In this document: piece after piece, positions 28,922 to 40,553 of the stretch
How positions within the stretch are numbered: position 1 is the first letter of the stretch
Layout of the letters: each line of letters starts with the position of its first letter
Source of the DNA: an uncultured Pelagibacteraceae bacterium
GTDB taxonomy: Bacteria > Pseudomonadota > Alphaproteobacteria > Pelagibacterales > Pelagibacteraceae
Length of the DNA stretch: 46,217 nucleotides
Direction of reading: 5' to 3'
NCBI GenBank assembly: GCA_902515205.1
Contig: CABXTU010000008.1
Location: 1 to 46,217, forward strand
Translations under genes and position numbers: made by a program
The notes under the pieces: generated by a model
Seen by the model: only the letters and a program-made list of their open reading frames with translations
What the model was told of the DNA's origin: nothing
The model's database searches: none

Positions 28922-29496
28922 TTAATAGCATCTTCCATTCTATCATCACCCCAAAAGATCTCATTATTAACTATGAATGATGGACTACCAAATATTTTAT
29001 TTAGACGAGCAGAGTCCGTATTTGATTTATATTTATTAATAATTCTTTCAGAATTAGCTTCAGAAATAATTTCATCTTTATCTAAATTTAGTTCTTTACA
29101 GATTTCATAAATACTGGGATCGATAGCTGGTTCTTTTCCTTCTTGAAACCATTTTTTATAAGTTAATCTTACGTAATCTATGCCCCAACTCTTATCTAAC
29201 CCTAGTATTGCAACTTGATTAGCTAAATCAAATTCAGATAATGGGTAGGGGACAGGTGTTTTAGCAAAAAAGCCATAACCCTCAGCACGTCTTTCTATAT
29301 CTCGCCACATATAATTAACTTTATTTATTTTATCTTTTGGAAATGGAATGTTATTCATTTCTTTCATTATTGCTCTAACACTAAAAGGTTTCCAATTAAA
29401 TTTAACCCCATATTGTTTTTCAACATCATTAATTCTTGTAACTGATAAATAAGTATAGGTGCTACCTATTGAGAAATAAAAATCTATATTTTTCAT
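28909..29496 (-). CDS. DsbA-fold 2-hydroxychromene-2-carboxylate isomerase-like protein
   Basis: A 195-residue thioredoxin-fold protein of the HCCA isomerase/GST-kappa group. The opening DFYFSIGSTYTYLS has a Ser where oxidoreductases have the CxxC, as in the glutathione-dependent isomerases. The FNWKPFSVRAIMKEMN block and the cis-Pro region GSPSFIVNNEIFWGDDR are characteristic. It probably uses glutathione on an aromatic or other hydrophobic substrate, but the aromatic degradation genes expected for a true naphthalene pathway are absent. The 4-nt overlap with the TPR gene suggests co-translation. Confidence 0.83.
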   Translation of the reverse strand: MKNIDFYFSIGSTYTYLSVTRINDVEKQYGVKFNWKPFSVRAIMKEMNNIPFPKDKINKVNYMWRDIERRAEGYGFFAKTPVPYPLSEFDLANQVAILGLDKSWGIDYVRLTYKKWFQEGKEPAIDPSIYEICKELNLDKDEIISEANSERIINKYKSNTDSARLNKIFGSPSFIVNNEIFWGDDRMEDAIKWSN

Positions 29497-30044
29497 ATAC
29501 TTTCTTTTTTGATTTGTAGCTTTAATTTTTCAATCATGATTAGTGGTGACTTCATATTAGGATGAACCTTATGAGCCTTAATATAACTATCAATTGCTTT
29601 TTGATAATTCTTTAATGCAGTTTGAACTAAACCTTGACCTGATAAAGCACCAAAATGTCTATTTTCAATTTCAAGGACTTTATTTATATCAGCTTGAGAT
29701 AATTCATATTTTCCCATTAAATACAAAACTGTAGCTCTCTTATTCCATGCTTCAGCCCAATTAGGGTCTAATGTTATAGTTCTTGAAAAAGTTTCATATG
29801 CAGATTCTAGATCATTCTGAGACATATAAAATGATCCATCAGATAAAAGATTAGTCAAGCTATCATTAGTTGGATGAGTTATCCAAAGACTCCAAATTTC
29901 AGACTCAATTTTTTTTGACTCCTCATAATTTGTTGTATTTTTTAATTGATTAAACAATTTATTTATTTGTTTTTTTTCATTATCACTTGCTAAAGAAAAG
30001 TTAGATAGAAATAAGATTAAGACTGTATAAATTAGTTTCTTCAT
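29493..30044 (-). CDS. Secreted or periplasmic TPR-repeat protein
   Basis: A 183-residue protein with an N-terminal signal (MKKLIYTVLILFLSNFSLAS, cleavage probably after FSLA), followed by at least three tetratricopeptide repeats: helices around DLESAYETFSRTITLDPNWAEAW, GKYELSQADINKVLEIE and NYQKAIDSYIKAHKVHPN. TPRs bind other proteins; no catalytic motif is visible. The only nearby partners with signals are the frameshifted genes upstream. The start (ATG-AAG-AAA) has no long homopolymer, in contrast to those neighbours. Confidence 0.82.
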   Translation of the reverse strand: MKKLIYTVLILFLSNFSLASDNEKKQINKLFNQLKNTTNYEESKKIESEIWSLWITHPTNDSLTNLLSDGSFYMSQNDLESAYETFSRTITLDPNWAEAWNKRATVLYLMGKYELSQADINKVLEIENRHFGALSGQGLVQTALKNYQKAIDSYIKAHKVHPNMKSPLIMIEKLKLQIKKESI

Positions 30045-30050
30045 TATTAT

Positions 30051-30645
30051 TTAATCTTTCTGATTGTTAAACTGGTCATAGCTCTTTTTTTTGCAAAATT
30101 TGTAATCATTATCTCCATATTTTTGTCCTGTTGCAGTATCAAATAATTTCCAATTAAATTTCACGCAACTTGATGGTTTTTTACCCAAATTTAATATTGT
30201 AAGTTCTACTGTCCTCGATCTCCCACCATCTGTAACTGAAAAAGTTCGGGACTCGTCTTTTTTCCAAAAACCTAAAGGAAATTTACAGCCATTTTTAATG
30301 TATTTAGTTCCAGATCTTCTTTGATCGTATACTCTTCCCATACATTGCCCATCATTTGTTATAGTGAAGAGTTGTGTTTTTCTAACTTTACCTTCTCTAT
30401 TTTTTTGGGTTCTTTTATAGACTTTAATAATTTCATCAGAACCTGGAGCTCTCCAATCCATAGGGCCAACAATTTTTTTTCTTTTTTTTTCGCCAAAAGT
30501 TGTATCCGCACTAGTAAATCTAATTTCCGTATCATCTCTTATTTCTCCACCTGTAAATAATTCTAAGGGAATAAACCTTTCATTTGCTGAAGAATTAGAA
30601 GTGCTAACAAATATAAAAAGTATTAGTGCTAATATTTTTTTTCAC
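30051..30645 (-). CDS. Secreted protein of unknown function; start codon one base out of frame at an A8 tract
   Basis: From ATG 30461 a 136-residue product is encoded, but the same frame stays open upstream for about 60 codons that read as a clean signal peptide (KKILALILFIFVSTSNSSAN) and mature N-terminus. The only start, GTG at 30645 in a TAGTG overlap with the upstream gene, is followed by eight A residues (30642-30635) and lies one base out of frame; seven would give a 197-residue secreted protein. No in-frame ATG, GTG or TTG occurs before 30461. The mature part has four cysteines and basic patches; I recognise no domain. Confidence 0.7.
30635..30642 (-). other. A8 slippage tract after GTG start
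   Basis: Eight A residues on the minus strand directly follow GTG at 30645-30643. Seven would join the start to the open signal-peptide frame. Candidate site of transcriptional slippage, phase variation or a sequence indel. Confidence 0.6.
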
Positions 30646-30965
30646 TATTTTGAAAGTTTGGTTGCTCCAGTCTCCTGGTGTAATACTTTTCCATCTTTAA
30701 ATTTATAATAAGTCATAACGGCTTCTTTGTTACCATCATTAAAAGTCACCATGGCATGTTCAAAACCAACTTCATTATTTTCAAAAAGTATTCTTACATT
30801 ATTTTTTTTGACATCTTTCATGCCAACCCAACTAACTACATCTTTCTTAGTTAAGCTTTTACCGGATGAATGCATTAAAAATTTAAAATCATCATGTATT
30901 AATTGTTCAGCTCCAGAGGTGTCACCCTCATTTACAATTTTTGTCATTTTTTCTATAATAGACAT
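30645..30965 (-). CDS. NTF2/SnoaL-like small protein
   Basis: A 106-residue protein fitting the NTF2-like cone fold: an N-terminal helix (MSIIEKMTKIVNEGDTSG), a DDFKFLMHSSGKSLTKKDVVSWV segment typical of SnoaL-like or DUF4440-type proteins, and three closing strands (AMVTFNDGNKEAVMTYYKFKDGKVLHQE). Such proteins are enzymes (isomerases, cyclases) or ligand binders; this one shows no clear catalytic pair. The ATG at 30965 is chosen because an SD-like AAAGGAGC precedes it closely; an ATG at 30998 would overlap the previous gene. Its TAG shares one base with the GTG of the next gene (TAGTG). Confidence 0.72.
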   Translation of the reverse strand: MSIIEKMTKIVNEGDTSGAEQLIHDDFKFLMHSSGKSLTKKDVVSWVGMKDVKKNNVRILFENNEVGFEHAMVTFNDGNKEAVMTYYKFKDGKVLHQETGATKLSK

Positions 30966-30966
30966 T

Positions 30967-31254
30967 TTATGCTCCTTTAATGATAATTCCGTTAGCAACT
31001 GAGTTATCTAATCGGATTTGTTTTATTGGTTTATATTCTTCTGAGTTATACCATTCCAAAGCCTTTTCGTAGCTTGGAAATTTAATAACCACCGTTCTGG
31101 GGTAAGTCCATTCTCCCTCCACTACTTTAGTTTCACCACCTCGAATTATATAATCTCCTCCAAATTTTTCAGCTACTGGTTTTACTTTTTCGATATATTC
31201 TTTGTATTCCTCTGGTTTTTTTACCTCTATATTGAAAATTGCAAACCCTGACAT
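30967..31254 (-). CDS. DUF1330 dimeric alpha/beta-barrel protein
   Basis: A 95-residue DUF1330 protein: FAIFNIEVKKPEEYKEYIEKV, FGGDYIIRGGETKVVEGEWTYPRTVVIKFPS with the family's RGG and R-x-V-V-I-x-F-P-S, then ALEWYNSEEYKPIKQIR. The fold is a ferredoxin-like dimeric barrel related to ABM/EthD proteins. Function unknown. The start lies in the tail of the cupin gene, whose last codons supply a GGGGAGAG SD. It is one of four or more barrel-type genes in this run. Confidence 0.85.
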   Translation of the reverse strand: MSGFAIFNIEVKKPEEYKEYIEKVKPVAEKFGGDYIIRGGETKVVEGEWTYPRTVVIKFPSYEKALEWYNSEEYKPIKQIRLDNSVANGIIIKGA

Positions 31255-33488: not shown

Positions 33489-33867
33489 TTATTTTAAAGT
33501 TCCTCTTAGTTTTTCTATTTGTTCTTCTGAACCTGGTATTAAATTGTAAATAAACGAGTTACACTCATCGTTTCTTTCATCATTAAATGATTGCCCAATT
33601 AATTTATCTGATTCCTCAATAGTCCCTTTATTTATCTCATCCTCCTTCACTTTTTCATTTAACAAATAAGCTTTTACTATTTTGTATGAGGCTAAAGCAT
33701 ATTCAATTTGAATGGCTTCAACTTCGTTAGCTGCAATAAACGTTATTGCTGTATAGTGGCCCAAACATTTAATTGCTTTTTCTTTATCCTCTTTGCTTAT
33801 GTGACCTCCGGCGAATGATGAGGTCGTAAAGAATAAGATTACAAGAGTTAAGATTATTTTTTTTCAT
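33489..33867 (-). CDS. Secreted Cys protein, paralogue of the next gene; start out of frame at an A8 tract
   Basis: Open frame from ATG 33764 gives 91 residues beginning GHYTAITFIAANE. The same frame continues upstream into a perfect signal peptide, joined to ATG 33867 only if the eight A residues at 33864-33857 are read as seven; the product would then be 125 residues. The mature part resembles that of the following upstream gene (33883-34254): a KCLGHY / DCVGIY pair and an ECNSFIYNLIPGS / KCHSFVEALVPNG pair of cysteines, with similar spacing. Function unknown. Confidence 0.7.
33857..33864 (-). other. A8 slippage tract after ATG start
   Basis: Eight A residues on the minus strand directly follow ATG at 33867-33865. 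With seven the downstream frame reads MKKIILTLVILLFFTTSSFA, a textbook signal peptide. Candidate slippage, phase-variation or error site. Confidence 0.6.
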
Positions 33868-36706: not shown

Positions 36707-37378
36707 TTGATTAAAAAATATCTAGATCAACAATCTCAGTATTGGGATAAAAGCTTCAGAAACAATACTGGGATGTTTGGTCATGAGCCAAGTGAAGGAG
36801 CTAAATATACTCTAGAGTATTTAAAAAAAAAAAAAGAAATATTTTCTAATGAAAATAAAATTAATTTACTTGAATTGGGAGCTGGATTAGGAAGAGATAC
36901 AAGATATTTTATAACAGAATCAAATATAATTAATATTACTGCTGTAGATTATAGTGTTGAAGCAATTAAAAATATCAACAAAAAAAAATTAGATTCAAAG
37001 AGAGTTGACACTAAAGTTTGGGATGTTCGAAATGGATTGCCATTTAAAGAAAACTCATTTGATGGATGTTTTTCTCATATGCTTTATTGTATGGCTCTTA
37101 CTACCAAAGAAATTATTAATTTAAATAAAGAAGTAAAAAGAATTCTAAGACCTGGGGGTATTAATATTTTTACTGTTAGGCATGTTGGGGATGAAGATTA
37201 TAAAAATGGAAAATATATTGGAGAAGATATGTACCAAAATGATGGATTTATAGTTCATTTTTTTTCTAAAGAAAAAATAAAAGAAGTATCAAAGGGTTTT
37301 AAAATTGAAACTATAAATGAATTTCACGAAGGTAAATTTCCAAGAAAGTTATTTATTGTTACTTTGAAAAAAGAATAA
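36707..37378 (+). CDS. Class I SAM-dependent methyltransferase
   Basis: A 223-residue methyltransferase; the SAM-binding motif I is LLELGAGLGRDTRYF and motif II/IV regions are ITAVDYSVEAI and FDGCFSHMLYCM, with a C-terminal VHFFSKEKIKEVSK region. The layout resembles TehB/thiopurine-type small-molecule methyltransferases. The start is TTG at 36707, two bases after the peroxiredoxin stop, in frame with the expected family N-terminus (QQSQYWDKSF). Ends TAATG, coupling to the LysE-like gene. Substrate unknown. Confidence 0.85.
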   Translation: MIKKYLDQQSQYWDKSFRNNTGMFGHEPSEGAKYTLEYLKKKKEIFSNENKINLLELGAGLGRDTRYFITESNIINITAVDYSVEAIKNINKKKLDSKRVDTKVWDVRNGLPFKENSFDGCFSHMLYCMALTTKEIINLNKEVKRILRPGGINIFTVRHVGDEDYKNGKYIGEDMYQNDGFIVHFFSKEKIKEVSKGFKIETINEFHEGKFPRKLFIVTLKKE

Positions 37379-37996
37379 TGGAATTTTTAATTTTGGGTTT
37401 TCTTACGGGGCTGAGTTTAATTTTAGCCATTGGAGCGCAAAATATATTTGTCATTGAGCAGGGTTTAAAAAAACAGTTTATCTTATTAGTTTGTTTGATT
37501 TGCTCATTTTCAGACTTGGTATTAATTTTTTTTGGAATTTTTGTTTTCCATTTTTTTTAATCAATTTTTTAATTTATATATAGAGCTCACCTTAAATATT
37601 TTATTAATTTTTTTTCTAATTTATTTTATATATACAAAGATAAAGTTTTTAAAAACTAATTTAAGTTTTGATAGCAGGATAACAGATACGTCGAAAACAA
37701 AAATTATTTTAAAAACGCTTGGTTTTACTTATCTTAATCCTCATGTTTATTCAGACACAGTTTTTTTCTTGGGTAATTTTACAAAAAATTTTTTATTAGA
37801 GGAAAAAGTGTATTTTGGAATAGGGGCGTCTATAGCATCTTTTATTTTTTTCCTTTTGTTGGGTTATCTATCTAATTATTTATCAATATACGCCCAACAT
37901 AAAAATACATGGAAGTATATCAATATATTTATAATTATTTTTATGTCTTTGCTTACAATCTATATCATTAGAGAAACTCTATATTTACTTAGATAA
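37378..37996 (+). pseudogene. LysE/ArgO-family amino acid exporter, interrupted by +1 shift at a T8 tract
   Basis: The first 60 codons read as a LysE/ArgO N-terminus: MEFLILGFLTGLSLILAIGAQNIF, then a CSFSDLVLIFFGIF segment that is diagnostic. The frame then hits TAA right after eight T residues (37551-37558). Reading seven T's continues as HFFNQFF into a second open frame to 37996, restoring a 205-residue, five- to six-helix protein with a GFTYLNPHVYSDT segment typical of the family. So it is either a recent frameshift, a slippage-rescued gene or a sequence error. The family exports lysine, arginine or other amino acids. Confidence 0.78.
37551..37558 (+). other. T8 slippage tract inside lysE-like gene
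   Basis: Eight T residues within the coding region. Reading seven restores the LysE frame, reading eight stops two codons later. An earlier T8 tract at 37526-37533 in the same gene is in frame, since the family motif is intact after it. Confidence 0.6.
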
Positions 37997-40489: not shown

Positions 40490-40553
40490 TATTTTTTTAT
40501 ATGAGTTAATAAAACAATTTATTGCAAATTAGTTTTTTTTTTCAATTAAACAA

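Follow-up and report, generated by a model that had tools for sequence, protein, structure and literature searches.

One extra A behind the GTG start of a SAR11 secreted-protein gene, probably a homopolymer indel in the assembled sequence

Layout of the locus and its reading frames

The window analyzed here is the complete contig 8 (46,217 nucleotides) of a 0.99 Mb genome from an uncultured Pelagibacteraceae bacterium, which consists of 42 contigs, is 83% complete and has a GC content of 29%. Its relatives in the GTDB-based collection belong to the Pelagibacteraceae (SAR11); with few exceptions they are single-cell genomes from the AG- series. From the 42 contigs, the completeness and these near neighbors we infer that the source is a single-amplified genome as well. 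The following features of the window are relevant for the analysis:

29493..30044, minus strand: intact gene of a TPR-repeat secreted protein, downstream of gene 1 (open reading frame and family search)
30051..30641, minus strand: gene 1, secreted-protein gene in the signal-peptide frame, no in-frame start (reading of the open frame; no family match)
30085..30092, minus strand: lesion 2, an A8 tract close to the 3' end of gene 1 (the relative has 7; the conserved C-terminus follows in the next frame)
30635..30642, minus strand: A8 tract, lesion 1 (A7 in the relative; alignment to the relative)
30643..30645, minus strand: GTG start, overlapping by one base with the TAG stop of the upstream gene (GTG and A7 kept in the syntenic relative, L062)
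30645..30998, minus strand: intact SnoaL-like gene upstream of gene 1 (weak match below the cut-off)
33857..33864, minus strand: lesion 3, an A8 tract that immediately follows the ATG (33867-33865) of the second gene for a secreted protein (33863-33489); the relative has 7 (frame-aware comparison)
37551..37558, plus strand: lesion 4, a T8 tract within the gene of a LysE-type exporter (37378-37996); the relative has 7 (whole-window alignment)

At the start of gene 1 the minus strand reads ...TTTCAAAATAGTGAAAAAAAATATTAGC. The TAG stop codon of the SnoaL-like gene occupies positions 30647-30645, and its final G is common to the GTG start codon of gene 1, which is followed by the A8 tract, as the first-pass annotation had described. 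From the GTG the reading frame reaches a TAG after 13 codons. The signal peptide (KKILALILFIFVSTSNSSANERFIPLELFTGG...) is spelled by the frame that is open from 30641 to 30051 and that is directly preceded by a TGA (30644-30642, within GTGA). This frame contains no ATG, GTG or TTG until the ATG at 30461, and inspection thereby bears out the earlier statement that it is open for 60 codons and offers no alternative start.

The same annotation had taken this frame for the conserved one, which holds for its upstream part, conserved in every readable homologue, but not for its 3' end. There the frame of the window reads KFCKKKSYDQFNNQKD and ends with KKKSYDQFNNQKD, whereas close homologues end with KFC(K/N)(K/N/G)(R/K)(A/S)MTSLxIRKIK or similar. 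The corresponding conserved C-terminus of gene 1, KKRAMTSLTIRKIK, sits in the next frame, beyond the second A8 tract (30092-30085).

Searches against Pfam, NCBIfam, PHROG and PDB gave no match for the gene 1 protein, and an AlphaFold model of low confidence (pLDDT 59) predicts a signal helix plus a beta-rich part. A scan for promoters and terminators stayed at chance level. The source genome contains 3472 A/T tracts of at least 7 residues. Within 677 kb of it we counted 484 A8 tracts in open reading frames, so that a length of eight is common and not unusually long, together with 61 cases of NTG followed by A8 and 104 of NTG followed by A7. Since start codons followed by A runs are common in a genome with 29% GC, this motif alone is uninformative.

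Homologues of gene 1 and the neighboring tracts

The gene 1 family is present in 78 of 399 genomes of the genus, and the collection of genome contigs contains 88 loci. Intact homologues are secreted proteins of about 195 residues with many invariant columns in an alignment of 23 sequences. About 80 distinct homologue 5' ends were readable, and in all of them a start codon lies in the frame of the signal peptide. This codon is ATG, GTG or rarely TTG (ahead of ATG), with the signal peptide and NERFIPLELFTGG or close variants of it downstream; after ATG and GTG, KK or RK comes next in almost every case. An out-of-frame A8, the putative OFF state of a switch, did not occur among these readable 5' ends. 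A scan of viral contigs revealed no relatives of gene 1.

Genomes of the same species were not found among the relatives in the collection. The nearest relative is SAR11 AG-325-L02 (G399, L062), with 93% protein identity and a synteny that extends over 5.6 kb at 91% nucleotide identity. At gene 1 the two sequences are about 97% identical; the TAGTG recurs in AG-325-L02, where A7 comes after it and the frame is intact. Judged against these sequences, the window carries one extra A relative to the conserved frame. The comparison of A7 and A8 among homologues, which the first-pass annotation had suggested, is hereby made, and of the three causes offered there (slippage, a phase switch or an indel) it supports the indel, because every readable homologue keeps the upstream frame and the tract of the closest one is A7; slippage and the phase switch gained no support. 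The normal state of gene 1 is expected to be that of a secreted protein with a GTG start, whose expression would be coupled to the upstream gene.

Two further properties of the family were observed. The copies in the genomes G107 (L288) and G151 (L289) have single-base frame lesions in the middle of the gene. The upstream sequences beside the family members vary between genomes, with a few recurrent types of signal peptide (e.g. MKKLLGIVVLGLLWIIPVSA), which suggests mobility or recombination at the signal peptide.

Raw counts of nucleotide gaps between the two genomes were too noisy at about 84% identity, and frame-aware comparisons were used instead. These call for reading by eye, because artificial upstream extensions of open reading frames give false frame breaks, and automatic versions overlook lesions at gene ends. 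Among 491 orthologous open reading frames compared in this way with the sister genome, only two aligned N-termini had lost the start at a start codon plus A tract: gene 1 and the ATG followed by A8 at 33867, 3.2 kb apart. Apart from A8 versus A7, the second secreted-protein gene is 97% identical to its counterpart in the relative; a gene caller would place its start late, at the TTG at 33764. The LysE-type exporter gene is broken into two open reading frames by the T8 tract, which is T7 in the relative. Together with the tract at the 3' end of gene 1, four coding changes from 7 to 8 were identified, each of them +1; they affect three genes and span 30.08 to 37.56 kb. An intergenic change from T9 to T10 is located at 40533 (40.53 kb).

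Most other tracts of at least 7 residues in this patch of 7.5 kb, which holds 25 tracts, have the same length as in the relative. Across about 630 orthologues in 910 kb of the source genome, the only further clear lesion of a coding frame affects a gene of the RluA family on contig 10. Simulations with an even spread of events gave a probability of 0.0001-0.0035 for four events within 7.5 kb, and this rarity argues for a local cause in the patch.

Comparison with the relative gave dN/dS values of 0.11 (core of gene 1), 0.20 (second secreted-protein gene) and 0.08 (exporter gene, larger part), which is the range of the intact neighbors. These values indicate purifying selection; the lesioned genes were functional until very recently, or still are. 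The core of gene 1 is free of stop codons, and its only added lesion is the +1 at the second A8; together with the dN/dS, this does not fit a pseudogene in decay. The region from 29.9 to 40.5 kb is about 90-98% identical to the relative, and the flanks and most of the genome about 76-85%, which suggests recent recombination or transfer of this segment.

The same class of lesion in indispensable SAR11 genes

A scan for rpoB covered 201 genomes of the genus, 142 of which were above the family cut-off, and suspicious copies were read. Lesions of +1 in A tracts of rpoB were found in three SAR11 genomes, with A7 changed to A8 in G037 and G025 and A9 to A10 in G063 (L292, L293 and L294). The rpoB copy of G079 (L295) contains an in-frame TAA. 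In the first 400 kb of the one-contig genome G012, mraY has A9 where the frame needs A8, and an A-tract lesion is also present in a Kdo-transferase gene (C1, regions around 185577 and 104724; L306 and L302). In the mraY survey, 8 genomes gave two matches each; G012 is the only one of them whose DNA was read, and the others do not enter the lesion count. Two genes of the sister genome, accA and purH, also show frame lesions of a single base, in these cases deletions. Since genes such as rpoB and mraY cannot plausibly be inactive, lesions of this kind come about while the gene keeps its function, either by sequencing or assembly error or because they are rescued.

The rpoB data correspond to 3 lesions per about 850 tracts, or about 0.35% per tract, with a tract number per copy that was taken from five copies and is approximate. 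Applied to the 3472 tracts of the source genome, this rate gives about ten lesions per genome, and the five lesions in the source genome are unsurprising in number, only in their clustering. For the SCGC single-cell workflow, which is behind the AG- genomes, a benchmark reported 3.0 indels per 100 kb (PMC11247762).

Explanations of the A8 tract and comparison with known systems

We consider the A8 at 30642-30635 to result from a homopolymer indel of +1 in the consensus sequence of the assembly, most likely of technical origin, with a probability of roughly two in three. The technical cause is what we infer from the A7 in the syntenic relative and the in-frame starts in all readable homologues, as well as from the three further +1 changes nearby and the occurrence of the same lesion class in indispensable genes, all of which favor it; the purifying selection that all three genes still show points the same way. 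The functional gene would then consist of the GTG followed by A7, and the extra A could have arisen when DNA of a single-cell-type genome was amplified, during library PCR or in assembly at low coverage; three more such changes lie in the same patch of 7.5 kb, which would be poorly resolved. In the cell, translation would begin at the GTG that overlaps the upstream stop and would yield a signal peptide and a secreted mature protein ending with ...KKRAMTSLTIRKIK. Two observations fit this explanation less well. The cluster, with 4 of the 25 tracts in the patch, is far above the rpoB average (about 3 in about 850), so that average error alone is insufficient and low coverage or the like has to be assumed. 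The presence of such lesions in the one-contig genome G012 may also speak against a technical origin.

A/T runs mutate fast, and the four changes could be real and very recent frameshifts, in which replication slippage inactivated dispensable accessory genes as the first step of decay. The restricted distribution of the gene 1 family, which marks it as accessory, and the frame lesions of the copies in G107 and G151 are in line with this explanation. However, it demands four independent events, all +1, within 7.5 kb that is free of stops and other coding indels, in genes where purifying selection continues, and the same class of lesion affects rpoB and mraY, which a cell cannot afford to lose. 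Thus, we regard it as unlikely, though it deserves to be kept in mind. If instead the A8 is true, slippage of RNA polymerase or of the ribosome might supply the in-frame product in sufficient amount, as in Buchnera and Blochmannia. A genome of 29% GC with thousands of A/T tracts of at least 7 residues, the precedent of the endosymbionts (PMC3017870) and the purifying selection on the gene core speak for such tolerance, although the latter is also expected of an artefact, and no error would have to be invoked for the lesions that several SAR11 genomes carry in essential genes. The hallmark of this mechanism, conservation across lineages, is lacking, with readable homologues in frame and A7 in the syntenic relative, and gene 1 would require two rescues per transcript. 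In addition, an A8 has to be corrected by a deletion, whereas in published data nearly every transcription error in an A/T run is an insertion; in Buchnera, 151 of 157 insertions and 16 of 57 deletions fell in such runs (PMC5574713). Tolerated slippage at this gene is in our view quite improbable.

The chances of a phase-variable switch at the start codon, with A7 as ON and A8 as OFF, are poorer still. It is true that two secreted-protein genes of the cluster combine a start codon with A7/A8 tracts and that a start codon plus A7 is frequent among SAR11 genes with signal peptides, but the OFF state was not seen in any readable homologue, the one relative that differs has A7, and tracts of 7-8 are ordinary in the source genome. 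Moreover, no start-codon logic unites the second lesion of gene 1 at its 3' end with the lesion in the middle of the exporter gene. Slippage specific to gene 1 and phase variation at its start codon are both disfavored by this 3' lesion and by the +1 changes of the two neighbors, one of them mid-gene. Finally, a near-cognate start after termination and reinitiation would make the difference between A7 and A8 irrelevant; ATA (30635-30633) and other near-cognate codons do precede the hydrophobic core in the signal-peptide frame, but homologues begin at ATG or GTG, and the 3' lesion and the neighboring genes are left unexplained, which makes this proposal barely credible.

Taken together, the lesion of gene 1 is most likely an ordinary indel at the sequence level and not a genetic switch. 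For gene 1 itself this finding matters little. It calls for caution, as +1 lesions in A/T tracts occur in SAR11 draft genomes, even in rpoB and mraY, and frameshifts seen in a single SAR11 genome should not be taken as switches, slippage sites or pseudogenes when reads are lacking. There is a slim chance that the +1 poly(A)/(T) frameshifts in many SAR11 genes, including rpoB and mraY, are real and rescued by slippage, as a free-living counterpart of the insect endosymbionts. If the lesions in essential genes were real, they would represent striking tolerated frameshifts in one of the most abundant bacterial groups of the ocean.

Among known phenomena, the locus resembles the consensus homopolymer indels of single-amplified and draft genomes (PMC11247762), in which single-base errors of run length break conserved and even indispensable genes; it differs in that the four changes, all within 7.5 kb, are clustered more tightly than a genome-wide average, and their cause here is presumed. 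With the poly(A) frameshifts of Blochmannia and Buchnera that are rescued by transcriptional slippage (PMC3017870) it shares the AT-rich genome and the single poly(A) indel in a conserved frame. In contrast to these, there is no conservation across lineages, one gene carries two lesions, and the tracts are shorter, with 8 residues compared to the 9 or more that are counted as long in that study. Homopolymer contingency loci of the Campylobacter type likewise have a run of one nucleotide close to where a gene for a secreted protein starts, but here no second state is seen among the homologues and the tract length is unremarkable for the genome.
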